Shown here: piece after piece, positions 1,704 to 16,939 of the stretch
Position numbering within the stretch: the stretch's first letter is position 1
How the letters are laid out: each line of letters opens with the position of its first letter
Source of the DNA: a virus
Length of the DNA stretch: 43,579 nucleotides
IMG/VR virus record: IMGVR_UViG_3300036715_000447
Coordinates: 1 to 43,579 of that record
Reading direction: 5' to 3' (one strand)
The notes under the pieces: generated by a model
What the model saw: only the letters and a program-made list of their open reading frames with translations
What the model was told of the DNA's origin: nothing
Databases searched by the model: none
Made by a program: the position numbers and the translations under genes

Positions 1704-3190
1704 GAAAACACCTTTACACTGTATTGTTTTTCGAATCGTTGTGCATCGTATATGTCATTGACAATTGGTTCACCACGAATGTTCAAGCTTGTGTTAAGCA
1801 GCATAGGGCAGCCAGTAACTGCGTACCATGCATCTAGCAATTCACGAATGCCCGACGCACAGTTTTTAGGTACAGTTTGCACACGGCTAGTACCGTCGGC
1901 GTGAACAATGGCAGGGAATTTATGCGGGTAGCGGCACATCGCAACCACTTGCATATACGGTGACAATGGTAAGTTATGCGGCATGTCAAAGTATTGGTTG
2001 ACATGTTCCTCGAGGATAACAGGTGCAAACGGACGAAACTTTTGACGCTGCTTGATTTCATTGACTCTGTCTTTGATGTCGTCACCGCGCGGATCTGCAA
2101 GCAAGCTTCTGTTGCCAAGTGCTCGCGGGCCAAATTCTGCCTGTCCACTTGCAACACCAACAATTTGTTCTTCTAGTAGCGTATGCAGCAACTTAGCAGT
2201 AGGATATGGGCCAATGATACTGTTTCCCAAGTAAGGATGTTGCCAGTTTAATTTCTTACCGTATGTCAATGCCGCGGCACCTAAGCTACTACCTGCGTCA
2301 CCTGGGTTAGGCATGATCCATGTGTTAGTAAAATACTTACCAAGATTGCGGTTAGCTAAACAGTTAAGTGCGACACCGCCCATGTACACTAAGTTGCCCG
2401 AGTAATTGAAGTTCGCTGCAATTTCCATTACACGGTAGATAAGCTTTTCAACTAATGCCTGTGCACTAGCAGCTAGATCGTACTTGTCAAACTGCATTGC
2501 GTAGTCACGATGGAAACCTGTATGCAAGTTAGACTTCATTACTAGATTCCGTGCATCTTGTACCAAGTCTTGTTCCAGCATTCCTTTAAGTTGCGAGTTG
2601 CCGTAAGCAGCCATGCCCATAAGAATGTATTCTTCGTCTAGTGGTCGTAAGCCCACCTCTTGCGTCATTGCAGTGTAAAACAATCCAATGCTGTGCGGGT
2701 ACTTTTGTCCCCATAGCTTCTTATACTTTGCTTTGCCGTGCTTGTCGTAATGTGCACCGTAGATACTAATCGTGTCAAACTCACCAATGGCATCAATGAC
2801 TACCACTGTAGCTTTATCATAGGGGCTGGTTTGGAATCCTGCGGCAGCATGAGACAGGTGATGGTTCCAAACAGATGTACTACCCAGGAAAGAATCAAAC
2901 TGTGCGCCTAGCTGTGTGCGCAATACTTGATTCAGTGTGAGTTTATCCCACTCAACTCCTTGTCCAGAATATAGCTGGCGCAGTTGCTTAACGAATGGTC
3001 GTTCGTAATACGCAATGTGGTCTACATTGTAGTATGCAAGAACATTGGCAATGTCAGGGCAAAGATTGGGATCGCTCTTTTGTTTAGAGTAACGCTCGCT
3101 GTGCGATGCATACAAAATGCTCCCATCGTCCTTAATGACGCTCAATCCCGCGTCATGAAATCCTGCTGATATTCCTACTGTGCATCCCAT
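1700..3190 (-). CDS. Carbamoyltransferase (NodU/TobZ/CmcH type)
   Basis: A 496-residue protein with both halves of the family. The N-terminal Kae1-like domain starts VGISAGFHDAGLSVI (H12), has A-S-H-S-E-R (about 28-33), HHLSHAAAGF (H110, H111, H114) and VIDAIGEFDT with the D-x-x-G-E motif (about 132-138). The C-terminal YrdC-like domain contains EFGPRALGNRSLLADPR, followed by the R-Q-x-F-R-P-F-A-P block. Family members use carbamoyl phosphate and ATP to O-carbamoylate sugars or antibiotics (NodU on Nod factor, TobZ on tobramycin). All visible metal-ligand histidines and the GPRALGNRS loop are kept, so it is probably active. It overlaps the SGNH hydrolase by 16 nt upstream and the APS-kinase-like gene by 4 nt downstream. 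The substrate is unknown but is probably a sugar made or attached by this operon. Confidence 0.93.
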   Translation of the reverse strand: MGCTVGISAGFHDAGLSVIKDDGSILYASHSERYSKQKSDPNLCPDIANVLAYYNVDHIAYYERPFVKQLRQLYSGQGVEWDKLTLNQVLRTQLGAQFDSFLGSTSVWNHHLSHAAAGFQTSPYDKATVVVIDAIGEFDTISIYGAHYDKHGKAKYKKLWGQKYPHSIGLFYTAMTQEVGLRPLDEEYILMGMAAYGNSQLKGMLEQDLVQDARNLVMKSNLHTGFHRDYAMQFDKYDLAASAQALVEKLIYRVMEIAANFNYSGNLVYMGGVALNCLANRNLGKYFTNTWIMPNPGDAGSSLGAAALTYGKKLNWQHPYLGNSIIGPYPTAKLLHTLLEEQIVGVASGQAEFGPRALGNRSLLADPRGDDIKDRVNEIKQRQKFRPFAPVILEEHVNQYFDMPHNLPLSPYMQVVAMCRYPHKFPAIVHADGTSRVQTVPKNCASGIRELLDAWYAVTGCPMLLNTSLNIRGEPIVNDIYDAQRFEKQYSVKVFS

Positions 3191-3828
3191 TTGAATTCCT
3201 TAATTTTCGATATGACTTTGTCTGCTACTATCCTATGCCCAGCATCTAAGAAGTGCCCATTCGGACCTTGTTTGCAGCCATATGTCCATTCGGCCATTCC
3301 GTTACCAGGATCTATAAAGTGAGTAATGTCTATCTGCTTGCGCAATTCACTGTAGCTAAATTTGAATTTATTTTTGTAGTATTCGTTACCTGCGACTGGT
3401 GTCATTAAATATCTTATATTGTTGACCTTTAAGTATGACTGAAGTACTATAATATCTATTAGATATTGCTCGTAAATGTATTCATCACAGTGATAACGAT
3501 TGATATATTTCGTTAATTCTTTCCGCCAAGGATGATGTGTCCACTTACCTGCATACCCAGGCCATGTGTCAAATATGCCATCTTCGTCGGCAAACTCAAT
3601 CCTTCCCGGTGAAGTCCATCCTATAATAACCAAGTCGGATGGTTCCATGCTACTTAAATTTTCTATGGTTTTTCTGACTATACTTTTATTGCCTGCCCCT
3701 GGCGCGCCTGCATTAGTAATCTCACATTTGAATTCATTCGCGACTAAGTGAGGCCAGGCGGTATTGCGGTCAGATAGTTCTTCGCCATAAGTAAAGCTGT
3801 CTCCGACAGCTAATATGTGTTTTATCAT
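3175..3828 (-). CDS. SGNH/GDSL-family hydrolase (putative esterase)
   Basis: A 217-residue cytoplasmic-type protein with no signal peptide. Block I is AVGDSFTYGEEL (nucleophile S11), block II is NAGAPGAGN with G41, and block V is D195-A-G-H198, giving the Ser/Asp/His triad. Block III is degenerate: the usual G-x-N-D is replaced by GWTSPGR, and whether another residue fills the oxyanion role is unclear. SGNH enzymes commonly remove or transfer acyl groups on sugars and are frequent in polysaccharide-modification loci, which fits the adjoining carbamoyltransferase. It starts 4 nt inside the end of the 33-residue microprotein gene. Its DNA is visibly more AT-rich than the carbamoyltransferase gene, which hints at a separate origin. 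Confidence 0.82.
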   Translation of the reverse strand: MIKHILAVGDSFTYGEELSDRNTAWPHLVANEFKCEITNAGAPGAGNKSIVRKTIENLSSMEPSDLVIIGWTSPGRIEFADEDGIFDTWPGYAGKWTHHPWRKELTKYINRYHCDEYIYEQYLIDIIVLQSYLKVNNIRYLMTPVAGNEYYKNKFKFSYSELRKQIDITHFIDPGNGMAEWTYGCKQGPNGHFLDAGHRIVADKVISKIKEFKWDAQ

Positions 3829-3929: not shown

Positions 3930-5006
3930 TTATTTAAGCAATTTAATTTGCTGCTCCATGTAATCTTTATCTTCCCATTTATACCGATATCCGCAATATT
4001 GTTCGTTTGTTTCGATACTACGCACATTTAAATGTCTGCCTAACTTCTTCCATACCCGGCGGTGTCGTTCTGTTTCAAAAGTACGACGAAGATCAACTTG
4101 TCCTACTTGCGGGTGCCCAATAGTTAACGACTTGTCGTCAGGGTTAAATCCATTATGTACTAACCATTCACGGAAACGATTAAGTTCTTCTTTCATGTAA
4201 GTGAACTTAAATGGATTATTGGCCCATTCTATGTCAAAGTCCCCAGCAGCTTCTGTCTGCGAACGCATCGTCGTCGTAACTAACTTGTCTATATCGCGGC
4301 CTTCATCCTGAAATACTTCCCAATGGTGCTTACCCACTGCTTTATTTACTCCCACATAAACTGCGCCCTGTGGTCTGCAAATTGTATCTATACCAAATAA
4401 TTCGTAGTCCTCTTCATCTAGTACAAAACGTGGTGCATTAAGCCAGCACATTAGTTGAGATGGTCTACGCCATTCGGGGGCGTGCTCATTTTTACGCATA
4501 CTCAAAACTAGCGATTCATATTCGTGACATAGTAGATTTAATTGTCGTATATGCCAACGAGTAGCATGGTCAGCCTTATCATAAAACGGCGACATTGACC
4601 CGCTCACGCCCTGCAAGTCTTCGAAATAACGGTGCAACCAATTCATTTTATCATGAACTATTTTGCAGCCAGGGAGATCGTCACCTACGGCTCCGGTAGT
4701 TATTGTGTTCGCTACAGTAAAGCTATCGTTGATAACGTATCCCAGGTTTGCTGCATTGATCGCTGCGATAGACTCGTTCATTCTATCGCACAGAAATACT
4801 GCATTGCGTTTGGATTCTGTAAATCCAACAAAGCAATAGTTTTTTTCTAGGTGATAATCATTTTCCAATAGATGATTTAATGCCTTAAGCCACTTTCGAC
4901 TTAACGAGTTATCAAACACATCTATGTATACTTTCAGTTCGTGCCCATCATCCGCAGTGAGCACCATTTCGATTTCATCTAACTTCGATTGATTCCCACC
5001 ACTCAT
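3930..5006 (-). CDS. Conserved phage protein of unknown function in radical SAM operon
   Basis: A 358-residue protein with no motif I can tie to an enzyme family. It has no signal peptide or transmembrane segment. It is rich in Trp, Tyr and His. Blocks that look conserved include DNSLSRKWLKALNHLL near residue 30, FVGFTESKRN near 60, F-x-x-L-Q-G-V-S-G-S near 130, H-E-Y-E-x-L near 160 and a charged, aromatic C-terminus (YRYKWEDKDYM). It overlaps the first base pairs of its partner, the radical SAM gene at 4975-6285, by 32 nt and precedes the microprotein by 3 nt. It may be an accessory or substrate-binding protein for the neighbouring radical SAM enzyme. A new enzyme fold is equally possible. 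Confidence 0.8.
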   Translation of the reverse strand: MSGGNQSKLDEIEMVLTADDGHELKVYIDVFDNSLSRKWLKALNHLLENDYHLEKNYCFVGFTESKRNAVFLCDRMNESIAAINAANLGYVINDSFTVANTITTGAVGDDLPGCKIVHDKMNWLHRYFEDLQGVSGSMSPFYDKADHATRWHIRQLNLLCHEYESLVLSMRKNEHAPEWRRPSQLMCWLNAPRFVLDEEDYELFGIDTICRPQGAVYVGVNKAVGKHHWEVFQDEGRDIDKLVTTTMRSQTEAAGDFDIEWANNPFKFTYMKEELNRFREWLVHNGFNPDDKSLTIGHPQVGQVDLRRTFETERHRRVWKKLGRHLNVRSIETNEQYCGYRYKWEDKDYMEQQIKLLK

Positions 5007-6285
5007 ATGATTCCTTGCGTTGTTTTAAAATGTCTGACATAGTGTACTTATCATCCCTGATTTGCTCCAATTGTAAAATGCGCCGTTTTCCTGCTTGCTG
5101 TGCAAGCTTGTAAGAATCAGGCCATTGTTCATCGAATGTAGGGCGATTTTTAAGTTGGGTTAGGATATCAAACATTTCACCTGGTGAAATGTCAGCGAGA
5201 ATTTCGTCTACCCATGGATGCAATATGTGCCGCGGCATTGCTAACGGACTCATCATTATGTCTGGACCAAAGCTGAATACTACTTTGGCCAGTACGTCTA
5301 TTCCTTCTTGTTTGGCAAGGTCAAGAATGTTTCTACACTCGGTGAGACCCGGGAGGGTAAGAGTGAAATCGAGTCTAACTTGTCTACGGTCACGTCGGAT
5401 TCCCTCCGACCCCCTAAGATTTTCAAGCCATTGATCGTAGCGGAGGCCTGTTCTAATGTATTCTCCAGTTTTACCCGTTCCGTCAATGCTCGCACATATC
5501 TGCCAATCCCTAAGATTAGCCAGAATATCTGTATAAAGATTATCACCTTTAAACTTAACTCGAGATAGATTAGTATTGTATCGCGCATAAACTTTAGGTC
5601 CATCTCCGAGCTCAATTATTCTTTTCATATAACGCCAATGTTGCTCATACATTAACGGTTCGCCCCCGACCCAGTAGACTTCCTCTACTCTATGTTCCTC
5701 TACTGCGTCGCTAAATTCTTTCTCAATCTGTGTATCTTGGAACTTACTAATCTCTGCCCTAACACTGGGAATCATCCAGTTGTTCTTTGTGTTAGTTAAA
5801 TCTATCATGTTATTTTGTCGCTGTTCGCTTTCCCACGAACTGCTCAACATATCGCCGCACATTCTGCATTTAAAGTTGCACAGATTACTGAAGCGATAGT
5901 CCCAGCTAACTGGTTTAGCGGTAGTGTATCCCGTTTCATCAGTTGCTGCCATAACACTATCATACTTATGCCCAAAGAGCTGATTAAAATAACTACGGTA
6001 AACTGATGTGTTTAGCATTTTGCTATTACATACCTCGCACTCTGGCAAAGTTTCGCCCGCCATCATCCGTCTGCGCACATCTTTCATGTGCTCGCTATTC
6101 CAATGCTCTTCTAAGGTTACCGGAATATATTTACCCGTGCCTGCACTTACGTCGATGTATTGTTCAAAGTTTTGTGCTGGCTCCCGTGACGCACAACACA
6201 TTCTTCGCTCCGTTATAGGAGAAACATAGGTGTGGGTATAAGGCGCCATGCAAAAATTAGGTTTATCTTTTGGTATATTATGCAT
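4975..6285 (-). CDS. Radical SAM protein 7 of the array (CC-type N-terminal twitch)
   Basis: A 436-residue protein. The radical SAM cluster motif is C136-N-F-K-C140-R-M-C143, followed by L-S-S-S-W. The glycine-rich SAM-binding motif is WVGGEPL. Upstream of the core lies a second cysteine set, C12 (FCMAPY), C30-C31 (R-M-C-C-A-S) and C83-x-x-C86, typical of an N-terminal twitch or auxiliary Fe-S region. It is more divergent than its paralogues: FCMAPY replaces the usual [FL]-C-x-L-P-W. It starts 8 nt inside the end of the GT10-like gene and runs 32 nt into the 358-residue gene. The product is presumably a SAM-dependent radical enzyme acting on a sugar, peptide or nucleotide. The substrate is unknown. 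Confidence 0.9.
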   Translation of the reverse strand: MHNIPKDKPNFCMAPYTHTYVSPITERRMCCASREPAQNFEQYIDVSAGTGKYIPVTLEEHWNSEHMKDVRRRMMAGETLPECEVCNSKMLNTSVYRSYFNQLFGHKYDSVMAATDETGYTTAKPVSWDYRFSNLCNFKCRMCGDMLSSSWESEQRQNNMIDLTNTKNNWMIPSVRAEISKFQDTQIEKEFSDAVEEHRVEEVYWVGGEPLMYEQHWRYMKRIIELGDGPKVYARYNTNLSRVKFKGDNLYTDILANLRDWQICASIDGTGKTGEYIRTGLRYDQWLENLRGSEGIRRDRRQVRLDFTLTLPGLTECRNILDLAKQEGIDVLAKVVFSFGPDIMMSPLAMPRHILHPWVDEILADISPGEMFDILTQLKNRPTFDEQWPDSYKLAQQAGKRRILQLEQIRDDKYTMSDILKQRKESYEWWESIEVR

Positions 6286-7174
6286 GTGCTATTTCTAACA
6301 TTGGGTATATTATTTCTTCGGTAAAACGTTTGGTTACTAGTTCTTTATTAAAGAACAAATTGTGGTTGTACTCTAGCTTTTCTAATGTGAGTACATCGTA
6401 GGGAACTTTGTCAAAGTTTTTAACGTTGTTTATAATGACTTTTAACTTTTCACTTAAATCATCTATTAAGTCATATGACTCGTCAAATAAGTTACCGAAC
6501 GATTCAAATCCAAGACTCCTCAGAAAAGCCAAGTTTCCTTGATGCGCAAAAGTCATAAATGGATGGTAAAAAGCTATTGGCTTAAATGATTTTTCTGTAG
6601 TCAGTCCGACTGTTGGTTTATTAGTAGCGTAAGTCTCGACTACCATACTAAAATATGTATCATCATACCAAATCGGATTCATGAACCTCTGCCATTCGGG
6701 ATTACTTTTCTCGCTATCACCGGGCAATTGCACCCCATTGTAACTATAAACAAAATCATCTAATAAGCTACTTAGTGCACCTATGATCAATGACCGATGG
6801 CGTTTTATTATGTTCATCGGCATAAATGCCAACTTTTTATATGTTTTATTAGGTATATACCTGTCGTAACCTAAACTTGAATACCACAATGATTCATTGT
6901 ACCAGAAAAATGCCTCATTGCTAATGACATTGTAATCCGTAGGAATCTGGGTCTCCCATAAATTGTCTACGATAATCTTCGCTGTATCTTCAAACTTTGA
7001 CACCCATTGCTTGTCTTTCGACATACAATTTACCGCATACAATGTATTTTTATCGTAAGTCATTGCATCATCGTATACTACAATATCAAAATACTGCTCG
7101 AATAATGGCTGCAAATATTTAGATTTAAAACTTGTATGTTCGTCAGGATGCAATACTAATTTAGGTTTCGCCAT
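6278..7174 (-). CDS. Putative glycosyltransferase, GT10/fucosyltransferase-like C-terminus
   Basis: A 298-residue protein. The C-terminal third contains TEKSFKP (193-199), HPF (204-206), LRSLGFESF (218-226) and FDESYD (230-235). This order (T-E-K-x-x-K-P, H-P-F, L-R-x-L-G-F, D-E-S-Y-D) is the nucleotide-sugar-binding pattern of fucosyltransferase-type GT-B enzymes and their viral relatives. The N-terminal part is divergent, as expected for the acceptor domain. It is the only non-radical-SAM gene between array members, overlapping radical SAM 6 by 19 nt and radical SAM 7 by 8 nt, so it is made together with them. It is very AT-rich: positions 6301-6360 contain 16 G+C of 60. The exact sugar is not predictable. 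Confidence 0.72.
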   Translation of the reverse strand: MAKPKLVLHPDEHTSFKSKYLQPLFEQYFDIVVYDDAMTYDKNTLYAVNCMSKDKQWVSKFEDTAKIIVDNLWETQIPTDYNVISNEAFFWYNESLWYSSLGYDRYIPNKTYKKLAFMPMNIIKRHRSLIIGALSSLLDDFVYSYNGVQLPGDSEKSNPEWQRFMNPIWYDDTYFSMVVETYATNKPTVGLTTEKSFKPIAFYHPFMTFAHQGNLAFLRSLGFESFGNLFDESYDLIDDLSEKLKVIINNVKNFDKVPYDVLTLEKLEYNHNLFFNKELVTKRFTEEIIYPMLEIAHA

Positions 7175-8418
7175 AGCTCGGGAAATGTTTCTTTAAATTG
7201 CGTTTTTCGTATTGTATCTAATTGTTTAGTAACTTGTAACATTGTAACTTGATTTGTTTTGTCTGTCTTCATACCGCCAAATGCTTTAACTAACTGCACT
7301 TGTAGATATCCAGGCAGGGTTGCCTCGTAGCGTTTATGTAATTCGTCCCTGTACTCTTGTGGAAGAATAGCAGGACTATAGTAAGCAGGGTCAGTTACAA
7401 AATTGTAGTGAATGTAATCGCCCTTGAAAAATTCAGCAAACTCGTCTAGCGAGTCGTAGTTAAGTGCAGAGATAGTCTGTGTTATGCTCACTTCTACATT
7501 AGATGCCTTTAGCTTTGCATAGTTAGACACTACGTCATCCCATTTAGTAGGATAGCGTATGTATGCGTTCTTCTCACCTACTGCATCAATGCTGCAAGAG
7601 ATACGCGCCTTCTTAAACGAAGCCCACAACCCGTATGCATACTCAGGTATGTTAGTCATGTTAATAGAATAGTTGAGCTCAATGTTCTTAGCACGGTCTG
7701 AGATTACTAAACTGCGCAGGAACTCCCAGTGCTTCTTAATCAGCGTCGGCTCGCCGCCGTTGATATAGATAACTTTCAAGTCGCTTGATAGCTGCTCAAG
7801 GTCGTTCCAGAATATATCAGACTCAGGCCAGTCTAACTCAAACACATTAGAGTTAGCGTAGCCGATTGGCCAAGTCGTAAAGCGATCCCTGTCCATCATC
7901 TGGTACTTGTCTTTAAGGAAGTCAAACTTCTCTGCAAGCTTTAGATAATCACTGCGCCATTGTGACGATGACAATGGGTTGCATGTAACGCAACGTAGGT
8001 TGCAGATGTTGCCAAGGCGCAGCTCAACAAACTCAATGCGTGGTGTAATAGATCCGTCTTCTTTTGTAATGCTGCGGGCAAGCTCTTCCGTCATCGTGGG
8101 GAAGTTGCGTGTTTCTCTGGTTCGCTTGCTTTCCAATCCCTTTTCCTCCTTACGGTAGCAGCCCTTGCATGGCTCAGGTTCTTCGCCCGCCAGCATCTGC
8201 TTACGCACATTGCAGAACGAATGACTATTCATCACATCATTCAGGTGATTATATTTCAAATTATAAAAGGAGGGTTGCCCGTCAAATATAGTTGGATCAG
8301 TTATGTCGTAGGACGCAGAGCGAAGGCCAGCGTGGTCAGCTTCGCAGCACAGTGTCACATACCCTGCAGGGTGCGAGGCAATGTGATTCCAAGGTAGTGG
8401 ACAAAATTTAGATGTCAT
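7156..8418 (-). CDS. Radical SAM protein 6 of the array (CC-type N-terminal twitch)
   Basis: A 420-residue protein starting M-T-S-K-F-C-P-L-P-W. The auxiliary cysteines are C6, C24-C25 and C84-x-x-C87 (CKGC), and the radical SAM core is C139-N-L-R-C143-V-T-C146 followed by N-P-L-S-S-S-Q-W. The SAM-binding glycine motif is NGGEPT. A further Cys at 69 is not shared by all paralogues. The order matches the group of N-terminal twitch radical SAM proteins common in marine phage genomes. It overlaps radical SAM 5 by 11 nt upstream and the GT10-like gene by 19 nt downstream. No SPASM-like cysteine set is seen at the C-terminus, so the second cluster, if any, is N-terminal. Confidence 0.92.
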   Translation of the reverse strand: MTSKFCPLPWNHIASHPAGYVTLCCEADHAGLRSASYDITDPTIFDGQPSFYNLKYNHLNDVMNSHSFCNVRKQMLAGEEPEPCKGCYRKEEKGLESKRTRETRNFPTMTEELARSITKEDGSITPRIEFVELRLGNICNLRCVTCNPLSSSQWRSDYLKLAEKFDFLKDKYQMMDRDRFTTWPIGYANSNVFELDWPESDIFWNDLEQLSSDLKVIYINGGEPTLIKKHWEFLRSLVISDRAKNIELNYSINMTNIPEYAYGLWASFKKARISCSIDAVGEKNAYIRYPTKWDDVVSNYAKLKASNVEVSITQTISALNYDSLDEFAEFFKGDYIHYNFVTDPAYYSPAILPQEYRDELHKRYEATLPGYLQVQLVKAFGGMKTDKTNQVTMLQVTKQLDTIRKTQFKETFPELWRNLN

Positions 8419-9619
8419 TGTATCCCATTAATATAGCTATCTCTTCGTGTGTAGTAACTAAGCTTTGCTTACGGTATTCATCTGTGCGTTTTACTTTAGC
8501 AATAAATGCTTTACCATCGCTACCGGGACCTGATTCGATAAAAGATATAAGTCTATCAATTTCAATGCGGTGCGCAGGAGTAAACGAGCCAGCTTTAAGC
8601 TTATCAATTACAGCACGTTTAGCATCTGCGGTAAGCATATCAATTCTAAACTCGCGTTCGCCGTGTAACATGTTAAAGTAGTCGTAGTCAAAGCCTTGTC
8701 TACTAACCCATTCACATAGTTCTTCCATGTAGTAGATGTTAAAAGCGTTAGCAGTCAGACATACTTGTGTCTTAATGTTAGGCATGTCTTTGCGCAGTGC
8801 ATTGGCTTTAGCAACAATCTGTTCTGCAATGTCCCAGTCTGCGCCATAACGCTCGTATTCAAAACGTTTTCCTACGTTGTCAATGCTAAACGCCAACTCA
8901 ACAGTTTTGAAGTGCTTCCAAATATCAAATGCTTCCTTGGGAAACACTGTAGCATTTGTATTGTAATGTATTTCAATGTTTTTAGCAAACCCTTCGGTTA
9001 CCGCAAACTGTAGAAGATCAAAGTGCTCTTGAATAAGCAATGGTTCGCCACCAGTAAATTCGAAGTAAACAATCTGTGGCAATAAGCCACGAAGGTCATC
9101 CCAAAAGTCTTCGCTCTCACGTGGCCATTGTCCTTGCTTTAAGAACGTGTACGCTAGATGGTTCTTTTTGTTTACATGCGGTGTGTATGCCAATTCTTCT
9201 TGTGCCCACTTAGATGACGACCAGCTGCCACAGATGCGGCACTTCAGGTTACAGATATTACCTAGCTTGAGGTCAATAAACTTGAGTTGGTCAGGTGTAT
9301 CATTTTCCCAATCTACTTCTTTGGCTAGCTCAGGTAAGCGCATAAACGTAGACATACGTTTGCTTTGGCGGCCCACTGCTTCTTCGTCCCAACATGTAGC
9401 ACAGCTCTTTGGCTGTTCGCCATTGCGGAATGCGCGGCGTAGACCTTGCATGTACTCGCTTTTATATATTGTGCTGAGTGGAGTATCCGTCAAGTTAAAG
9501 CGGGCGCCGGACTCGTTGGTAATCTCTTCTTTAAACATGCAGCAAGGTCGTGCCCCACCTGTTGGGCTTGTTTCGATGCTAACCCATGGTAGCATACATA
9601 GTGTCTTAGGAATTGTCAT
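8408..9619 (-). CDS. Radical SAM protein 5 of the array (CC-type N-terminal twitch)
   Basis: A 403-residue protein starting M-T-I-P-K-T-L-C-M-L-P-W. The auxiliary set is C8, C26-C27 and C73-x-x-C76 (CATC). The radical SAM core is C123-N-L-K-C127-R-I-C130 followed by S-S-S-K-W, and the glycine motif is TGGEPL. Between the cysteine pairs lies L-R-R-A-F-R-N-G-E-Q-P, the helix-turn that precedes the CxxC in all members. Compared with radical SAM 6 it is about 17 residues shorter. It overlaps radical SAM 4 by 14 nt. Reaction and substrate are unknown. Confidence 0.92.
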   Translation of the reverse strand: MTIPKTLCMLPWVSIETSPTGGARPCCMFKEEITNESGARFNLTDTPLSTIYKSEYMQGLRRAFRNGEQPKSCATCWDEEAVGRQSKRMSTFMRLPELAKEVDWENDTPDQLKFIDLKLGNICNLKCRICGSWSSSKWAQEELAYTPHVNKKNHLAYTFLKQGQWPRESEDFWDDLRGLLPQIVYFEFTGGEPLLIQEHFDLLQFAVTEGFAKNIEIHYNTNATVFPKEAFDIWKHFKTVELAFSIDNVGKRFEYERYGADWDIAEQIVAKANALRKDMPNIKTQVCLTANAFNIYYMEELCEWVSRQGFDYDYFNMLHGEREFRIDMLTADAKRAVIDKLKAGSFTPAHRIEIDRLISFIESGPGSDGKAFIAKVKRTDEYRKQSLVTTHEEIAILMGYNDI

Positions 9620-10937
9620 AGTTTTCTAATGTTTTCAGTTCTGTGAAGACGTTCCAGAAATCTTCGTTGCGCACGCCGTCAAGCAATGCAGTTTCTTTCT
9701 TAAAACGATCCCAGTGCTGTGAACCATCACTGCCGTTAATAAAGCTCAACATGCTACGGAATCCGTTAGTCGCACGGTTAAGGTCGTCTTGTGGCTCTAG
9801 CCATTTAATGTGTTCTTCGTACGCCGGAGTAATGACTTCGTCTTTAAACTTTTGCGGGAAGATGTCGGCACGGTACCAGTCTGGGCTTTGACAAATGTTT
9901 ACGTTCCAGTCCTTGGCTTTGATAAGCCCTGCATCTACCCATTCCTTATGGAAATCCAGCACATGCAATACGTTCATGCTGCTGACTGTGCTGCTTACAT
10001 AGAAGTCTACGTGAGGAACTTCTTCCATCATGCGTACACGGTTCTCTACAGTCTGTTCCCAATCTGTGCCTTTACGCATCAATTCACCACGTGCCCCAGA
10101 AGCATCTAGACTTGCGCCAACGCCAACTGATTTAAAATGTTTCCAATACTCAAATACATGCTTATCTTTAAACCGCATTTCGCTAAAGTTTGTGTTATAA
10201 AGGATACGTACATCTGTTTTACCTGCTTCGATTAACTTCTCGAGCAATGCGTAATGTTCCTTCATAATTAAAGGTTCACCGCCTGCAAAGTATACTTGCT
10301 CTAGATACGGAACGTGCTCTAGCATCTGTTCCTCGATTCCGCCATCTGTACCAGTGGTGTATTCAACTCGAGCCATCTCACGCCCTAATACGTCTGGCTT
10401 ACGTCCGTACAGTTTAACGTGGTCGTTGTACCATTGTGAACTAAAAATAGGACCGCACGAACGGCACTTCATGTTACACAGGTTAGAAAATCGTACATCC
10501 CAATAACGAATCTTAAACTCTGGGTGATAACCGTCTTCGTGTGTCTGCGCTACTTCTTTAACCATGTGCCCATAGTTGCGGTTAGCATCGTTACGCATAG
10601 AGAAGGCGCCGTGCTGCTCTTGTTCGTAGCACTTAGTACACTCAATGCACGGCTTGTCTGCAAGCATGTTGGTTCGCATTGTTTTGTATTTGTCTTGGTT
10701 CCATACTTCTCGCATCGTATGCTTGCGCAAGTCTCCGACAGGATGGAAGTATTCAGACAAGCAGCACGGGTAAGCACGGCCATCTGGGAAGGCATGCATG
10801 TGGGTCCACGGTAGCATACAGAATGTTTTACTTTCTGTCAGCTTGCTCCACTCTGCGTCGGTTAGTTCTTCCTTCTTAATGAAGAACGGTGCTTTGCCGT
10901 TGTAATCGTAATTATCGTCGTATACTTTTTTTGTCAT
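9606..10937 (-). CDS. Radical SAM protein 4 of the array (CC-type, extended N-terminus, extra Cys)
   Basis: A 443-residue protein with an N-terminal extension of about 30 residues (Y-D-D-N-Y-D-Y-N-G-K) not seen in the other CC-type members. The auxiliary set is C40, C58-C59 and a triple C97-x-x-C100-x-x-C103 (CIECTKC) instead of a simple CxxC, which could add a ligand. The radical SAM core is C154-N-M-K-C158-R-S-C161 and the glycine motif is AGGEPL. Its coding DNA is relatively GC-rich (33 G+C of 60 at 10561-10620). It overlaps radical SAM 3 by 4 nt (ATGA type) and radical SAM 5 by 14 nt. Confidence 0.92.
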   Translation of the reverse strand: MTKKVYDDNYDYNGKAPFFIKKEELTDAEWSKLTESKTFCMLPWTHMHAFPDGRAYPCCLSEYFHPVGDLRKHTMREVWNQDKYKTMRTNMLADKPCIECTKCYEQEQHGAFSMRNDANRNYGHMVKEVAQTHEDGYHPEFKIRYWDVRFSNLCNMKCRSCGPIFSSQWYNDHVKLYGRKPDVLGREMARVEYTTGTDGGIEEQMLEHVPYLEQVYFAGGEPLIMKEHYALLEKLIEAGKTDVRILYNTNFSEMRFKDKHVFEYWKHFKSVGVGASLDASGARGELMRKGTDWEQTVENRVRMMEEVPHVDFYVSSTVSSMNVLHVLDFHKEWVDAGLIKAKDWNVNICQSPDWYRADIFPQKFKDEVITPAYEEHIKWLEPQDDLNRATNGFRSMLSFINGSDGSQHWDRFKKETALLDGVRNEDFWNVFTELKTLENYDNS

Positions 10938-12283
10938 ATGCTATTGTACCATACTCCCAATCCAGGGAATGTCTTTCTAAAATCTTTATTACGGCGCACA
11001 TCGTATTGTTCGTGAAATGCTTTGAAATCTTTCTCTAGTACATTACGTTCGGCAGCACCTAAGTGTGGAGTCTTTACTACATCTAAATAATCAATAAGGC
11101 GTTGAACTTGATTGAGTTCCATTTCGCCTAAATGGGTGTTAGTATGGTTGTCGTCATACCAATCTTGAAGCTTTACTTTGTACATTCTGCGCAAGTTGTC
11201 AGGCAGGACTAGTGCACTTTGAAAGCTGGGGAATCGCATAATATTTAGCGAGAAATCAATCGCGTCGCGACCAAACTCTTGCTTCCATTGTACGATGATA
11301 TCTAGGAACTGTGGCAGCGATTCCAAGCACAGTGCATTGATTGTGTTCATTACGTGCAACCCGCGTAGCTTGCCGCTTTGCAATAGCTTCTCCACGTTGT
11401 TTGCCCATGCATCCCATTGTAAGCCATCACGTATGTATTCTGCGTGTTTACCTACAGACTCATTGCTTGTGTACAGATCAATCTGCACATCATCAAGAGC
11501 TTCCATAAGCTTGTCGAGATCTACTTTGTCGCCCAGGTTAGAGTTAATAGCAAGGCGGGTTTTGCTTGCGCCCTTATTCTCTTTGAACCATTCAATTAGC
11601 TTCCAAGTGTCGCCCGACATAAGCGGCTCACCGCCTGTAATGCGCAGTTCATCTAGTGTTGAGTGGAGGTCGCTTGCCCACCACTTATGGAACGCTTCCA
11701 CATAAGGATTATTTTCACCGAACTTATACAGTTGAGCACTATCGTGAGGATGAGTAAAGTGATTACGACCGTCGCTGACCAGTCCTGTGTAGGCACCGTT
11801 TTTCCGTATGTCATTAACCCAAGTGCTACTGAAAGCGGGATTGCAGTAAGAGCAAGCAAACTGACAAGTTCTATCAAATGCAATTTCCAAGGTTTTGAGG
11901 TTGATGTCAGTTGACGCAGGCGTGCTAAAAGCATATTGTAGATCCTTATCTTCATAAATGATTGTTTTGTAAACACGGTCGCTAATATTGTCACGACCAA
12001 TGTCCTCTATCTTCCAGCAATATTCACAACCAGAAGGGCGCTCTCCTTTTTGCATCTGCTCACGTTCCATTTTCTTCTTGGGCGTATTGTGCAGTGCTGC
12101 TGGATTAGCGATCACATCTTCAACTTCTACCTTGTGAGGCAACGGATGATGGCACGATGTTGTCATACCACTGCCAAGCCATATTGTTGCGTTGTACCAC
12201 TTTGCGCCGCAAAAGCTTTCGCTCTTGATATCAATTACACGGCGTTTGAATTGTAGATCTGTTTCGTTGGTTAGTCTTGTCAT
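10934..12283 (-). CDS. Radical SAM protein 3 of the array (variant C-x-H-P N-terminal motif)
   Basis: A 449-residue protein. The radical SAM core is C140-Q-F-A-C144-S-Y-C147 followed by N-P-A-F-S-S-T-W, and the glycine motif is TGGEPL. The N-terminal set differs from the CC type: C25 (F-C-G-A-K-W), then SC44-H-H-P-L-P-H in place of the CC pair, then N-P-A-A-L-H-N-T and C86-x-x-C89-W. The second cysteine is thus replaced by histidine-rich sequence. The same variant occurs only in radical SAM 1 (13394-14782), so the two form a subfamily. It overlaps radical SAM 2 by 4 nt and radical SAM 4 by 4 nt. Its function is probably distinct from the CC-type enzymes, but this is inference. Confidence 0.91.
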   Translation of the reverse strand: MTRLTNETDLQFKRRVIDIKSESFCGAKWYNATIWLGSGMTTSCHHPLPHKVEVEDVIANPAALHNTPKKKMEREQMQKGERPSGCEYCWKIEDIGRDNISDRVYKTIIYEDKDLQYAFSTPASTDINLKTLEIAFDRTCQFACSYCNPAFSSTWVNDIRKNGAYTGLVSDGRNHFTHPHDSAQLYKFGENNPYVEAFHKWWASDLHSTLDELRITGGEPLMSGDTWKLIEWFKENKGASKTRLAINSNLGDKVDLDKLMEALDDVQIDLYTSNESVGKHAEYIRDGLQWDAWANNVEKLLQSGKLRGLHVMNTINALCLESLPQFLDIIVQWKQEFGRDAIDFSLNIMRFPSFQSALVLPDNLRRMYKVKLQDWYDDNHTNTHLGEMELNQVQRLIDYLDVVKTPHLGAAERNVLEKDFKAFHEQYDVRRNKDFRKTFPGLGVWYNSI

Positions 12284-13410
12284 AATATATTGTATAAATG
12301 CAATGGTGTCGCGATGTTATGTCGTTCAGAAAACTCTATAACAAATCGTTCCAGTTCTTTGTAAAGCGTATGGTTGAATGTAACCGAATTCATTACTGTC
12401 AAAATTTGTTTGTTTCCTTCTGCAAACCCTAGTGTATCAATCATCTCTAATGTTGACGTTATGGCAGGTTTCAATTGCTCGGGCAAAGTTGCAAAACTTT
12501 GTATTTTCGGATTTACTACATAACTGAAACCCCAAATTAATCGCGAATGCAATTTTTTAAATTCTAAGACAACCGGAACAAGGTTTTCGATATCCCTTAT
12601 CGTAATGCTTGACATCAGCGATGCTATTTCAAAAGTTACATTAGGTGGTGCATTGTGCAATGCGTAAGTTATAGTGTTGATCAAATTAACATAATCGATT
12701 CCGAATCGAGTAAACTCTGCATTATCAGTCGTAGAATCTAAACTTACAGTAAGCGAAACTTTTTTAAATTTTCGAATATGGGCAAATAGTTTATCTATAG
12801 TAGCATTCGTACATTTAAAATTAGATGTAATTATAATGTGCGATGCCGACGATAACTTTAGAATCTCCCATAGTTGCTTATTAAGCAACGGTTCTCCTCC
12901 TATTAGGCATAACGTGTCCGGTTCATAGTGCTCTAGTAACCTCAGGTTCATTTCAGTCGTTTTACTCTTGGGGTCCACAGCGTAATGAAATCTATCAGCA
13001 AAAACAGGATAAATCTTTGTGTTTACGTCGTGTGCCCATTTACTGCTAAACTTTGGATTGCAGTATGTACATTGTAAGTTACACTCATTACCGAGATTAA
13101 TTTCTAATTTAGATGGTTGGCGATTGCCGGTTTGATAACTTTCAAAATTTGAGGTATTAAAAATCTGTAATGCATCTAAGCGTCGGCTTGTGTTACCCAC
13201 AGACTCTGTTGCCCAGCAATAGTCGCAACTAGGATCTCGAACACCTTGTAATAAATTTAACTGTTGGTCTTTTAATATGTTTCTTGCATTATCTATATTA
13301 GTAAATTTAATAGGCGTGGCTTTACAGCAAGCATACACATAATTAACCTGCGAATTCAATGTGATTTCGTCCCATTTAAGTGGACAAAAAGTGTCAGGAA
13401 TTGTTGGCAT
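12280..13410 (-). CDS. Radical SAM protein 2 of the array (CC-type N-terminal twitch, shortest)
   Basis: A 376-residue protein, the shortest array member, starting M-P-T-I-P-D-T-F-C-P-L-K-W. The auxiliary set is C9, C28-C29 and C62-x-x-C65-W. The radical SAM core is C110-N-L-Q-C114-T-Y-C117 followed by N-P-K-F-S-S-K-W, and the glycine motif is IGGEPL. The CxxCW-A-T-E-S-V-G stretch and NPKFSSKW resemble the C-x-H-P subfamily, while the CC pair follows the other group, so it looks intermediate. Its DNA is clearly more AT-rich than both neighbours (16 G+C of 60 at 12721-12780), which suggests later acquisition. It overlaps radical SAM 1 by 17 nt and radical SAM 3 by 4 nt. Confidence 0.91.
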   Translation of the reverse strand: MPTIPDTFCPLKWDEITLNSQVNYVYACCKATPIKFTNIDNARNILKDQQLNLLQGVRDPSCDYCWATESVGNTSRRLDALQIFNTSNFESYQTGNRQPSKLEINLGNECNLQCTYCNPKFSSKWAHDVNTKIYPVFADRFHYAVDPKSKTTEMNLRLLEHYEPDTLCLIGGEPLLNKQLWEILKLSSASHIIITSNFKCTNATIDKLFAHIRKFKKVSLTVSLDSTTDNAEFTRFGIDYVNLINTITYALHNAPPNVTFEIASLMSSITIRDIENLVPVVLEFKKLHSRLIWGFSYVVNPKIQSFATLPEQLKPAITSTLEMIDTLGFAEGNKQILTVMNSVTFNHTLYKELERFVIEFSERHNIATPLHLYNIL

Positions 13411-14782
13411 GATACCTACACTCTTTCCAGAATTCTAACATCTGCGGGAAGGTCTCTTCAAAGTTAGTACTACGGCGTTTATCGTGCTCGTTAAAGAATC
13501 GATAAAAGTCTGCACGTTGTTGCGTAATGTATTCCTTGGGAAGATTTTGCCCTTCTTTCATCCAGCCTATGTCTCTTCTGAGCCTTTGCACTTCGTAATC
13601 TTTAAATCCCTTAAATGGGAACTCAGGCGTTTCTAAATTCAATTCCATCCAGTCAGCTACTTGCTCTAGTATGCCCACATAAGCGGGAGGCAGGATCTGT
13701 AACGATTGCCACTTAGGCTGGCGCAGTATCGGAGTATCAAACCAGACACGTTGGTAGGTTGTACTGTGCTTGCGGCGCAATTCAAGTATCCATTCCAGGT
13801 AACGTTGCAACCCAATCACGCTAAGGTTGTTCATTGTGATAATGAATGTCAAACTATTGCGATACGGGATGTCAGTAAGGAAATGTTCTACGTTGTGCTC
13901 GACACGTCTGAAGTCCATACCGTGCCTAATGTACTCTGCATGTTCAGGTATGCCAGAATCCAAGCTAACGAACTGCATAAAGTGTTCGATTTGCGTGTTG
14001 CACAGTGCTTTTACATAGCTGTGGTACTTATCGTATAATGCAGTTTCTACGCTGAAGTTACTTGTCACATTCAGGTGCAAGTCTGGCTTAGGCAAAGCTA
14101 ACACATAGTCAAACACCTTGTACGTGTTCTTGTCCATGAGTGGCTCACCGCCTGTCATGCGGAAGTGCTTAAGGTGCGGGTACAGTGTTGGCCACCATTC
14201 CCAAAATGCGTCTACGTATGGATTGTGTTGTGAAGCAGGTATTGGACGATTTCGTCCAATAAAATGGCTAGCGTCATTGTGTATAGTACTAGTTGGGTAA
14301 CCACCCCAGCGGTCCACTTCTTGCCCCCACGATGAGCTAAATTGTGGACTACAATAGCTGCACTTGAGATTACAAGCGTGATTAAAATTAACCTCAACAT
14401 AACTTGGAATAACGTCATTTTCTTCTCCTGTACTATTACTTATTACATCAAAGTCAGAAGCTGCCCACGGTTCGCCGGAGCGGTAATGCCTATCGCTCAG
14501 TTGGTCATGCGCTTCAATATTCCAGCAATAAGAGCACTCTGCGGGCTTCTCATTCTTAAGCATAATGATGCGCTGTTCTTTTTTGTGCGTAGTGTTGTGC
14601 AGTGCACCTGGATTCTCTTTAAGAGGCGCAGGATCGATCTCGTGCAGTGGTGGGTGGTAGCAGGAGTTATTGAGACCTGTGGGAAGGTGTAAGCTTACTT
14701 GCTTCCATTTAGCTAGACACAATGCAGGGCCTAGTTTGGCCTTCATCTCGTCTGCTGCTGACATGAAATCTGATTTACTCAC
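13394..14782 (-). CDS. Radical SAM protein 1 of the array (variant C-x-H-P N-terminal motif)
   Basis: A 462-residue protein as called. The open frame reaches an ATG at 14851, but that would overlap the preceding glycosyltransferase by 77 nt. I prefer the GTG at 14782, which gives V/M-S-K-S-D-F-M and an 8-nt overlap. An ATG at 14764 is the alternative. In this numbering the cysteines are C22 (L-C-L-A-K-W), SC41-Y-H-P-P-L-H, C83-x-x-C86-W and the core C137-N-L-K-C141-S-Y-C144, followed by S-P-Q-F-S-S-S-W. The glycine motif is TGGEPL. With radical SAM 3 it shares the C-x-H-P motif and the N-P-x-A-L-H-N-T segment. It is the first radical SAM gene translated after the endonuclease insertion. Confidence 0.88.
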   Translation of the reverse strand: MSKSDFMSAADEMKAKLGPALCLAKWKQVSLHLPTGLNNSCYHPPLHEIDPAPLKENPGALHNTTHKKEQRIIMLKNEKPAECSYCWNIEAHDQLSDRHYRSGEPWAASDFDVISNSTGEENDVIPSYVEVNFNHACNLKCSYCSPQFSSSWGQEVDRWGGYPTSTIHNDASHFIGRNRPIPASQHNPYVDAFWEWWPTLYPHLKHFRMTGGEPLMDKNTYKVFDYVLALPKPDLHLNVTSNFSVETALYDKYHSYVKALCNTQIEHFMQFVSLDSGIPEHAEYIRHGMDFRRVEHNVEHFLTDIPYRNSLTFIITMNNLSVIGLQRYLEWILELRRKHSTTYQRVWFDTPILRQPKWQSLQILPPAYVGILEQVADWMELNLETPEFPFKGFKDYEVQRLRRDIGWMKEGQNLPKEYITQQRADFYRFFNEHDKRRSTNFEETFPQMLEFWKECRYHANNS

Positions 14783-15662
14783 GTGCCATAATCCCCGGGT
14801 CTTTGTACCCTGCTCTGTAATGGTGTTTAAAGAATTTGCTTTGCCCTGCATTCATGTCTAGAATAGGCAAACCTAGTCTGTTGCGCAATGCGTCGTCTAC
14901 TTCAATCGTCGTCACCTGCTGATCCCATTCTTCCCACAATGCCTTTAGCTTGGTAAAGTCTTGCACCTCTTTGTAATCCCAACCTGTGCACATTGTCATG
15001 TACGTACCTAGCCTTGCTCCTATCAATGCCCACTTTCCGTTCTCTGCATCTAGTCCCACGTTGTGCCAGATTGTGAGGTTGTCCATGTTACGCTGCACAA
15101 CGGCTTTGTTGAACTCTTCCAGTGTAGGTTTTTTGCCACGATTAAGAGACATCTTAACACCTTCCCTAAACCCAGCACGCCAGGCTTGAAACGGTGTACC
15201 GTTAGGGTACGTTGTAGAATAACAACCGCCCATAGCCCAGTACTTTGGGTCAAAGCAGAATTCGACATCAGTTTCATCGTTCCCGGTTGATGCTTCGTGC
15301 GTCTGCATATTCATGACAAAATCTTTTGTCCAGCAAGAGATGCCCCCGTTGCCGTACATTAATCCATTTACTTCGTTACGTGCTTTCCAACGAAACACGC
15401 TTTCGCGGTTGCTATCATCAATGCGTAACTGCATATTAAAGAAAGCAGGATCAGGTATGTTATCTCCATCAATAAGGATGAAGCGATCTGTGTCGGAAGC
15501 TTGGGCTGCTGCTTTGTGTGCGGCATCAGAGCCGTGAACCCCATCAACTCTCTTTGCCCACGGTACCATGTTTTGAAGTTTGATCCAAAACTCTTCTTTT
15601 TTAGGTTCATCATATGTCAAAAAAATTACGTCTAAGTCTGCGATACAAGTTAAATTATTCAT
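14775..15662 (-). CDS. Glycosyltransferase-like protein with D-G-D-N motif
   Basis: A 295-residue protein. The N-terminus reads L-D-V-I-F-L-T-Y-D-E-P, then W-A-K-R-V-D-G-V-H-G, A-A-H-K-A-A-A and RFILIDGDN with D65-G-D67, the metal/nucleotide-sugar motif of GT-A enzymes. Later blocks include W-K-A-R-N-E-V-N-G-L-x-Y-G-N-G-G and W-R-A-G-F-R-E-G-V-K. No membrane segment is present. I recognise this as a family seen in T4-like marine phages, but the donor and acceptor are unknown. Its ATG lies 24 nt from the oppositely oriented endonuclease gene, so its own expression depends on read-through across the insertion or on a promoter inside it. The pattern is related to the N-terminal module of the gene at the left window edge. 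Confidence 0.8.
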   Translation of the reverse strand: MNNLTCIADLDVIFLTYDEPKKEEFWIKLQNMVPWAKRVDGVHGSDAAHKAAAQASDTDRFILIDGDNIPDPAFFNMQLRIDDSNRESVFRWKARNEVNGLMYGNGGISCWTKDFVMNMQTHEASTGNDETDVEFCFDPKYWAMGGCYSTTYPNGTPFQAWRAGFREGVKMSLNRGKKPTLEEFNKAVVQRNMDNLTIWHNVGLDAENGKWALIGARLGTYMTMCTGWDYKEVQDFTKLKALWEEWDQQVTTIEVDDALRNRLGLPILDMNAGQSKFFKHHYRAGYKDPGIMARE

Positions 15663-15686: not shown

Positions 15687-16583
15687 ATGTTTTTAGAAAA
15701 CAAATATACTAGTTGGTACTATAGCATAGTCAACACCGCAAAAGCAAGAGGTAATAGAAATAAGTACACCGAAAAACATCATATTATCCCGGAATCCTTT
15801 TTCGCAGCAAGTAAACGATCAAAATGCCCAGGCTCGCTATTAGGTAATCCAGGCGCAGCTAACAACATTGTTCGACTTTTACCAAGGGAACATTTTATAT
15901 GTCACATACTACTAACTAAAATGACAGTAGGTGAATTTCGGAAAAAGATGTTATTCGCAGTACTGGGAATGAAACGTGTCACTAAAACACAACAACGATA
16001 CATGAATTCTAGATTATACAGTACAGTTCGCACCCAAGCTAGTGTATTTTTCAGTGAGCTAAATGCTGGGCGCAAACATTCACTAGAAACGAGGGCTAAA
16101 GTATCAGCCGCTAGTAAACTTAGAAAGCATTCGGATGAGACTAAAGCCAAAATGTCAGCTGCGAGCAAAGGTAAACCGAAGTCAGATTCACAAATCAACA
16201 AAATGAAATTGTTGAAACATTCAGCAGAATCAAAAGCTAAAATGTCCGCTGCCAATAAAGGAAGAACTGCATCCAATGCGACAAAAGCCAAACAGTCAGC
16301 TGCAAGTTTAGGTAAACCAAAAACTAAAGTACACGCAGAAAATATATCAAAAGGCTTAACAGGACAATCTAAACCTCCTATGCCAGAATACCTAAAAAAA
16401 CAAATTTCCGAAAAACTCAAGGGCCGGAAATCAGCACGGAAAGGAACTAAAGGGCTAGTTAAACATTCTCCGGAAACAAAAGCTAAGATAGCTGAATCAA
16501 ATCGCAGGCGAGTAGTATCTGCAGAGACCAAAGCTAAAATAGCAGCAAGTTTAGCGAAAACTAGAGCATTAAAGAAACTTTAA
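15687..16583 (+). CDS. Free-standing HNH homing endonuclease with NUMOD3-type repeats
   Basis: The only credible plus-strand gene: 298 residues, strong RBS TAAGGA 5 nt before the ATG. The HNH nuclease core is EKHHIIPES (H31, H32), then NN at 59-60, then PREHFICHILLTKM (H69, H73), typical of phage group I-type and free-standing endonucleases. From about residue 129 on it carries short S-x-E-T-[KR]-A-K-[VM]-S-A-A-S-K-G-K repeats (near 132, 149, 180, 194, 261 and 279), matching NUMOD3 DNA-binding modules. The protein is very basic. It sits between two genes of a minus-strand operon: it diverges from the glycosyltransferase by 24 nt and overlaps the stop of the 119-residue gene by 3 nt in convergent orientation. 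This indicates a neat mobile insertion. The cleavage site is expected in a phage relative that lacks it. Confidence 0.92.
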   Translation: MFLENKYTSWYYSIVNTAKARGNRNKYTEKHHIIPESFFAASKRSKCPGSLLGNPGAANNIVRLLPREHFICHILLTKMTVGEFRKKMLFAVLGMKRVTKTQQRYMNSRLYSTVRTQASVFFSELNAGRKHSLETRAKVSAASKLRKHSDETKAKMSAASKGKPKSDSQINKMKLLKHSAESKAKMSAANKGRTASNATKAKQSAASLGKPKTKVHAENISKGLTGQSKPPMPEYLKKQISEKLKGRKSARKGTKGLVKHSPETKAKIAESNRRRVVSAETKAKIAASLAKTRALKKL

Positions 16584-16939
16584 GGTAAATTAGTTCTGTA
16601 CTCATAGTATTCGATATTTGGGTATGTTTCGTCTTGCTCAATAATCAAACCGGCATTGTTCTTTACTACAGGAAATCCTTTAGTAGACTTGCTTAATTGT
16701 ACACGAAAGCCAGGATCATTTTCAATCTTTTTGAGCTTGCCGTTAACTACAGTGTACCTAAAGTAGTTGTCGTAATCGTTTTTAGATACAACAATATACG
16801 TGCCGGGTTCGTGCGATTGCATGGAGCAACTAGTTATGTTGCCATCTACATCGTAGTAAATTCTGTATTCTATTGGTTCTACTTTAAACGGCTGAATGGC
16901 CGCTATAGCTTTGAGGAATTCTGATTCTGCATCAGTCAT
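16580..16939 (-). CDS. Conserved phage protein of unknown function (119 aa)
   Basis: A 119-residue acidic protein. Visible blocks are Y-R-I-Y-Y-D-V-D-G-N-I near residue 26, H-E-P-G-T-Y-I-V-V-S-K near 43 and V-V-N-G-K-L-K-K-I near 64. These look like a small beta-rich fold. I recall similar Y-R-x-Y-Y-D-x-D-G-N proteins from cyanophage-type genomes, often near glycosyltransferase genes, but this is memory and was not checked by a search. No membrane segment or catalytic motif is seen. The ATG overlaps the end of the upstream glycosyltransferase by 8 nt. Its stop codon overlaps that of the endonuclease gene on the other strand. Confidence 0.8.
   Translation of the reverse strand: MTDAESEFLKAIAAIQPFKVEPIEYRIYYDVDGNITSCSMQSHEPGTYIVVSKNDYDNYFRYTVVNGKLKKIENDPGFRVQLSKSTKGFPVVKNNAGLIIEQDETYPNIEYYEYRTNLP

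Follow-up and report, generated by a model that had tools for sequence, protein, structure and literature searches.

Does a run of radical S-adenosylmethionine (SAM) genes in a phage operon serve one pathway, and what would that pathway make? The question is raised by IMG/VR virus record IMGVR_UViG_3300036715_000447, analysed over its whole length of 43,579 nucleotides (here referred to as the window), which carries seven such genes, rS1 to rS7, on one strand at 4975–14782. The first-pass annotation of this DNA took them for paralogues acting in a joint multi-step pathway, broken by one fucosyltransferase-like gene. We found that five of the seven belong to an ordered block of genes which appears to be carried by hundreds of large uncultured water phages. 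It is somewhat probable that this block is a single pathway, retained across a wide range of large uncultured phages related to T4, and we lean to the reading that its enzymes assemble and modify a glycan at the surface of the virion or the host.

Seven members of the N-terminal-twitch family

All seven open reading frames (ORFs) were confirmed. In the profile search each exceeds the curated cut-off of 170 bits of the NCBIfam model NF033640 (N_Twi_rSAM, “twitch domain-containing radical SAM protein”), with scores of 185.8–389.9 bits, and a family search across the entire 43.6 kb record returned exactly these seven. The alignment agrees with the motifs first described: the CX3CX2C (CxxxCxxC) core and GGEP are invariant in 7/7, and so are four more N-terminal cysteines (C40, C58, C100 and C103 in rS4 numbering). 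By score and cysteine set the proteins are thus members of NF033640. Neighbouring genes overlap by 4–19 nt, and one non-radical-SAM gene, GTx, interrupts the series, as had been reported. The other six proteins share 19–30% identity with rS4; according to Pfam, rS2, rS3 and rS4 have an N-terminal SPASM-type cluster domain. The gene rS7 has a GTG start at 14782 and an in-frame alternative ATG at 14851.

Searched against the PDB, the family profile finds its best sequence matches in viperins (E about 1e-8), and NF038283, the model of prokaryotic viperins, is weakly matched. This could point to a viperin-like role, in which the enzymes make a modified nucleotide or another small molecule that acts on the host or on competing phages. 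However, where they match this model the radical SAM proteins of the window score 20.7–31.6 bits against an equivalog cut-off of 180, and viperin membership was rejected on score. The match spans only the generic radical SAM core, with the N-terminal twitch region outside it, and a single nucleotide analogue would need neither five obligatory different enzymes nor glycosyltransferases. We regard this explanation as very improbable.

A core of five enzymes in fixed order

Scans of IMG/VR yielded 40 loci with rS4, at least 599 confirmed viral relatives with rS5 and 409 confirmed relatives with the partner gene GT2. The order of the block is tail-fibre-like genes, U103, GT4, GT3, U119, GT2, rS7, rS5, rS4, rS3, rS1, U358, CarbT and, in part of the loci, kin. 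We then assembled 103 distinct loci that bear GT2 and extend 9.5 kb or more past it. They were pooled from rS4/rS5-anchored and GT2/GT4-anchored scans, so the radical SAM query selected part of the set. The genes rS7, rS5 and rS4 are present in 103/103 of these loci, rS3 in 101/103 and rS1 in 89/103, and the order rS7-rS5-rS4-rS3-rS1 is unbroken throughout. Both loci without rS3 stop at that point, and 12 of the 14 without rS1 end within about 1.9 kb; in the remaining two, 3.3 kb are left and rS1 was still undetected.

As for the other two genes, among 96 deduplicated loci rS6 was found in 9 and rS2, by best match, in 3, and the nearest relative of the window, L008, is without rS6. This rarity marks rS2 and rS6 as optional cassettes and leaves a pathway core of five radical SAM enzymes rather than seven. 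The proposal of a joint multi-step pathway therefore holds for the five core genes, in view of their order, co-occurrence, cysteines, selection and fusion, while seven steps are too many.

Among 50,697 phage records, tblastn detected no relative of rS5 or GT2; U358 likewise had none in the phage collection, and rS4 has only distant relatives there, in Vibrio phages K566 and K567 and one single-cell marine virus. The 255 kb genome of K566 holds three annotated radical SAM genes of a distant lineage of NF033640 (L128:14980-19382) and offers a possible laboratory entry point to the family. By the baseplate wedge protein, Agrobacterium phage Atu_ph07 is among the nearest cultured relatives (35.5% identity). 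A 7.6 kb contig from a Flavobacterium metagenome-assembled genome (MAG), L129, has rS4-, rS1- and rS5-like genes in a different arrangement; it probably comes from a phage and was binned together with a bacterium.

Constraint and phylogeny of the core genes

For each core radical SAM protein, the cluster cysteines and GGEP are all retained in the 82–102 aligned orthologues, window included; for rS1 the cluster cysteines are kept in 82/82. The window and L008 have six radical SAM genes in common, and for these the ratio of nonsynonymous to synonymous substitution rates (dN/dS) is 0.024–0.121; on these sequences they are under purifying selection. Moreover, rS4 and rS3 are fused as a single protein in two related phages (L089:11344-13884, 846 residues; L092:13265-15790, 841 residues). 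Both seven-cysteine sets and both GGEP motifs are intact in the fusions, and the pair differs by dN 0.047 and dS 1.19. Such a natural fusion supports a functional link between rS4 and rS3.

These data bear on the plainest alternative, that the genes are unrelated moron-like cargo accumulating by chance in a hypervariable region. N-twitch genes are indeed also scattered singly in the same genomes, with 7–16 matches in each large contig (137–374 kb), the surplus lying scattered, and rS2 and rS6 behave as cargo. But the five genes hold their order and presence in the 103 loci save the two cut before rS3 and the 14 negative for rS1, and the fusion and purifying selection also speak against chance, so that we give this explanation hardly any credence. 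Scattering, loss of cluster cysteines and relaxed selection, which had been named as outcomes telling against a joint pathway, were not what we saw for the core.

We built a tree of 97 family members by a quick method, with no bootstrap. In it rS1, rS3, rS4, rS5 and rS7 form five separate, well-supported cross-phage orthologue clades. The rS4 clade sits amid cellular relatives and includes two MAG sequences, rS5, rS6 and rS7 make up a phage lineage, and rS2 stands apart, grouped with other lineages; the clades of rS1 and of rS5/rS6/rS7 are on long branches and have no close cellular members in the tree. The separate clades indicate that the block was built from separate old lineages and not by recent tandem duplication, a series that we rejected on the topology. 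The seven are paralogues in the sense of belonging to one diverged family, as first proposed, but not copies arising in tandem.

Some members carry additional parts. In L067:6957-8873 the rS7 protein has a 180-residue N-terminal extension like a free-standing cassette family, “FYPGAGG”. The rS4 ORFs of L079, L096, L114, L121 and L124 have an N-terminal extension of about 140 residues, which resembles by eye one on a solitary radical SAM protein (L218:3921-5345).

Partner genes of the core

The features of the block are listed in Table 1.

Table 1. Genes of the radical SAM block and its surroundings in the window
Gene	Position	Strand	Assignment	Basis
kin	1278-1703	-	small P-loop kinase-like (APS kinase/AAA_33/zeta-toxin-like)	Pfam APS_kinase 5e-7
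CarbT	1700-3190	-	putative NodU/TobZ-type O-carbamoyltransferase, core	Pfam Carbam_trans_C 3.7e-51, Carbam_trans_N 1.4e-32
SGNH	3175-3828	-	GDSL/DUF6071-like hydrolase or acyl transferase, variable cassette	Pfam DUF6071 1e-7
U358	3930-5006	-	uncharacterised core protein, tightly coupled to rS1	
rS1	4975-6285	-	N-twitch radical SAM, core	NF033640 282 bits
GTx	6278-7174	-	cassette protein of no recognised family, recurring in variable slots	
rS2	7156-8418	-	N-twitch radical SAM, optional	NF033640 348.7 bits
rS3	8408-9619	-	N-twitch radical SAM, core	NF033640 346.7 bits
rS4	9606-10937	-	N-twitch radical SAM, core	NF033640 389.9 bits
rS5	10934-12283	-	N-twitch radical SAM, core	NF033640 291.8 bits
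rS6	12280-13410	-	N-twitch radical SAM, optional	NF033640 185.8 bits
rS7	13394-14782	-	N-twitch radical SAM, core	NF033640 299.8 bits
GT2	14775-15662	-	putative GT-A-fold nucleotide-sugar enzyme, core	
U119	16580-16939	-	small conserved protein	alignment and synteny
GT3	16932-17759	-	GT8-like (glycogenin-like) putative glycosyltransferase, core	
GT4	17728-18549	-	GT3 homologue, putative glycosyltransferase, core	
U103	18518-18829	-	small conserved protein at tail-gene boundary	81/96 loci

CarbT shares both Pfam domains with NodU, TobZ and novobiocin O-carbamoyltransferases and on this sequence basis belongs to their superfamily, though its 132 bits lie far below the NodU equivalog cut-off of 1000. 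In the PDB its nearest entries are novobiocin carbamoyltransferase (1.7e-47) and TobZ (about 1e-34), and also GdmN. A NodU-type carbamoyltransferase occurs in 15/15 large phage contigs. The proximity of CarbT to sugar and natural-product O-carbamoyltransferases counts for a glycan as the substrate, which is the reading we favour.

The same superfamily includes a phage enzyme that carbamoylates 5-hydroxymethylcytosine (5hmC), found by MetaGPA (PMC8670742). The block might accordingly serve DNA hypermodification, with carbamoyltransferase, glycosyltransferases and radical SAM enzymes acting on hydroxymethylated bases; dCMP deaminase-like genes near the block in 20 loci and solitary radical SAM genes beside apparent replication genes would suit this. 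In the MetaGPA work, Asp177 of the thymidylate synthase homologue is linked to dCMP hydroxymethylation and Asn177 to unmodified DNA (PMC8670742). The thymidylate synthases of 8/8 related phage genomes, a count that concerns relatives rather than the window, have the canonical PFN (Asn177) and not Asp. Furthermore, 6 of the 15 contigs, which may be fragments, have no PF00303 match yet all have the carbamoyltransferase, CarbT is only 24% identical to the characterised 5hmC enzyme, and the block sits with tail genes. Carbamoylation of 5hmC in DNA is disfavoured on these sequence comparisons, whereas modification based on 5hmU or uracil may lie outside the reach of the thymidylate synthase argument. 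Overall, we consider DNA as the substrate improbable.

The three putative sugar-transfer enzymes are assigned with less certainty. In GT2 the DGDN motif is invariant in the alignment; its AlphaFold model (pLDDT 77) has as best, weak fold matches GT-A nucleotidyl- or glycosyltransferases (HddC, prob 0.96–0.97, TM about 0.3), and one orthologue weakly matches Glycos_transf_2 (E 0.016). The profile of GT3 matches glycogenin-1, of family GT8, in its N-terminal part (E 7.5e-5), and GT4 is related to GT3 by hhalign (probability 98.8%, E 5.5e-17) and has invariant D104 and D106. Neither GT3 nor GT4 gave a meaningful Pfam match. For U358, the AlphaFold model has a pLDDT of 87.9 and a PDB fold search gave no significant match; its relatives in BFVD are from phages only, including Agrobacterium phage Atu_ph07. 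The kin gene is present in 36/96 deduplicated relatives.

In most loci the operon directly adjoins tail-fibre-like genes and U286/U103. This position, among other points, suits a further explanation, in which a phage protein is itself the substrate of the radical SAM enzymes. They would modify tail or baseplate side chains in the manner of ribosomally synthesized and post-translationally modified peptides, and that protein would afterwards be glycosylated by the glycosyltransferases. SPASM/twitch radical SAM enzymes widely act as peptide maturases, and the proteins here show weak, superfamily-level matches to such models; glycogenin, the GT8 relative matched by GT3, glycosylates a protein. However, a Pfam scan reported no RRE/PqqD domain in rS1–rS7, and among the clustered neighbours, in which short ORFs were not searched exhaustively, we noticed no ORF resembling a conserved short precursor; the carbamoyltransferase, epimerase and dehydratase partners also suit sugars better. 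Direct protein modification is an unlikely explanation which nevertheless deserves some weight. The tail/baseplate gene region of the window also contains a single ORF of 4397 residues (23779–36972, minus strand).

Cassettes at preferred junctions

We counted inserts at the junctions of 143 distinct operons. They are common at GT2|rS7 (84/133), rS7|rS5 (80/139), rS3|rS1 (56/102) and U358|CarbT (44/82), and rare at rS5|rS4 (14/130), rS4|rS3 (19/119) and rS1|U358 (2/91). This shows that modifying-enzyme cassettes are exchanged at preferred junctions among the core genes.

The GTx-like family accounts for 132 of the 489 inserted ORFs. A fucosyltransferase-like identity had been suggested for GTx itself, but neither the single protein nor a 19-member alignment matched anything in Pfam, PHROG or PDB sequences; with no detectable homology there to GT10 or any other fucosyltransferase, this identity was dropped. 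Other inserts are SGNH proteins, 57 extra N-twitch radical SAM proteins, an AMP-binding enzyme and an epimerase/GDP-mannose-4,6-dehydratase-like protein (E 4e-48). Single-linkage insert cluster 0 mixes SGNH and radical SAM inserts, and its size is not taken as a family count. The content of the SGNH slot differs between relatives. In or beside the block, relatives have a galE/rmlB-like protein, and some have a MetK match above its cut-off or MTA/SAH nucleosidase and SufT/PaaD matches, both below theirs; the MTAN-like cassette occurs in the rS3|rS1 slot only (8 cases). A radical SAM protein with a B12-binding domain is a cassette in L256:8075-9577, and one of similar appearance is seen in L129:2326-3810. 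A further cassette family (L080:18551-19579, L267:10049-11098) has a “PLEEVIVG”-like N-terminus and, on reading the sequence, the look of an amidinotransferase; it had no match in Pfam or NCBIfam.

Two observations concern the surroundings. In L207–L226, N-twitch radical SAM genes stand singly next to apparent genes for UvsX, gp32, gp46/47 and UvsW, names given by reading; short-chain dehydrogenase/reductase (SDR), cytidylyltransferase-like or SGNH genes are often found next to them. In the window, a NUMOD3-containing, HNH-like gene of homing-endonuclease type (15687–16583, plus strand) stands between U119 and GT2 on the opposite strand; in relatives such as L008, these two genes adjoin or overlap each other.

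A proposed route to a modified glycan

A conserved block of radical enzymes and sugar-transfer genes suggests a heavily modified sugar coat on virus or host. In the glycan pathway that we propose, the glycosyltransferase-like enzymes would begin or lengthen a glycan. The acceptor would be either tail or fibre proteins, whose genes lie immediately upstream, or a glycan of the host surface. Each radical SAM enzyme would then use a 5'-deoxyadenosyl radical to take hydrogen off one sugar carbon, and its N-terminal auxiliary cluster would carry an electron, resulting in dehydrogenation, epimerisation or deoxygenation. This is the chemistry of sugar radical SAM enzymes of the BtrN, NeoN and AprD4 types. 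CarbT would next cap a hydroxyl, and the cassettes (SGNH, epimerase/dehydratase, AMP ligase and further radical SAM enzymes) would diversify the product. The MetK, nucleosidase and SufT cassettes may aid SAM supply, clearance of 5'-deoxyadenosine and loading of Fe-S clusters, respectively; the three families fit these roles. The resulting decoration of virion or host would be subject to diversifying selection, and its purpose would be to serve in receptor use, to exclude superinfection or to act as a shield. That the five radical SAM enzymes, all of them obligatory, act in succession on a single sugar, or on one glycosylated residue of a tail protein, and turn it into an unseen, cassette-diversified decoration is a more tentative idea, and one we hold with some doubt.

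Sugars as the substrate are supported by the gene context of a Candidatus Jettenia relative in the rS4 clade, which lies between genes of family-2 glycosyltransferases and beside Wzm/Wzt-type exporter genes. Several points, however, weigh against a glycan pathway. To our knowledge, no member of NF033640 has an assigned substrate or product. The distant cellular homologues, on reading their neighbourhoods, are in mixed contexts and not uniformly in glycan loci: a Paenibacillus homologue is apparently among acyl-carrier/ketosynthase-like genes and several others are solitary. As these contexts are mixed, the glycan mechanism is one that we infer. In addition, the glycosyltransferase assignments are weak, GTx and U358 are matchless, and the solitary relatives adjoin replication-looking genes in the same genomes. 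Finally, pairwise-distance correlations between core genes are moderate (Spearman 0.19–0.85) and their trees only partly congruent, for which reason alleles of the core genes have probably been exchanged between phages while the order was kept. Among the products first considered, glycan, peptide or nucleotide, we favour the glycan.

Relation to known systems

That T4-like marine phages can carry several radical SAM genes is known from earlier work, and the first-pass annotation stated that radical SAM proteins of the N-terminal twitch group occur in marine phages. The environmental T4-like virus TARA_ERS488813_N000010 has 12 radical SAM genes with paaD, grx and an A-type carrier (PMC5332604). 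It is like the block in combining many radical SAM and Fe-S assembly genes in a T4-like genome, and PaaD/SufT-like and MetK cassettes occur here too; compared by description, it differs in that the paper counts the genes and treats them as Fe-S metabolism, and does not present a conserved operon that includes glycosyltransferases (PMC5332604). Pelagimyophages, also T4-like, carry radical SAM cassettes with glycosyltransferases in a host-recognition cluster, a tail-adjacent hypervariable region (PMC7029224). By description, their radical SAM genes are variable additions, whereas in the block five such genes make up an invariant core in fixed order, accompanied by a carbamoyltransferase and U358.

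NF033640, to which the window's seven belong, names a domain layout and not a function. BtrN (PDB 4m7t), an aminocyclitol dehydrogenase, is an analogue in its way of working, with a radical SAM domain, an auxiliary-cluster twitch domain and a sugar-like substrate; however, its twitch domain is C-terminal while that of NF033640 is N-terminal, and the two match weakly (E 0.011–0.05). We found no description of the ordered five-enzyme core with its fixed partners and cassette slots in the open-licence literature, and a prior description elsewhere is possible.

Phage radical SAM genes, formerly entries in gene lists, here resolve into a deeply conserved, ordered pathway in hundreds of viral contigs. 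The block is a concrete target for giving NF033640 a function, and it predicts new chemistry of the virion or host surface. If radical-modified, carbamoylated sugars are indeed placed on tails or hosts, this would bear on receptor recognition, superinfection exclusion and defence evasion among aquatic microbes. If the five obligatory radical SAM enzymes do produce one decoration, they would represent a new class of viral biosynthetic machinery in large aquatic phages, for which we found no cultured representative.

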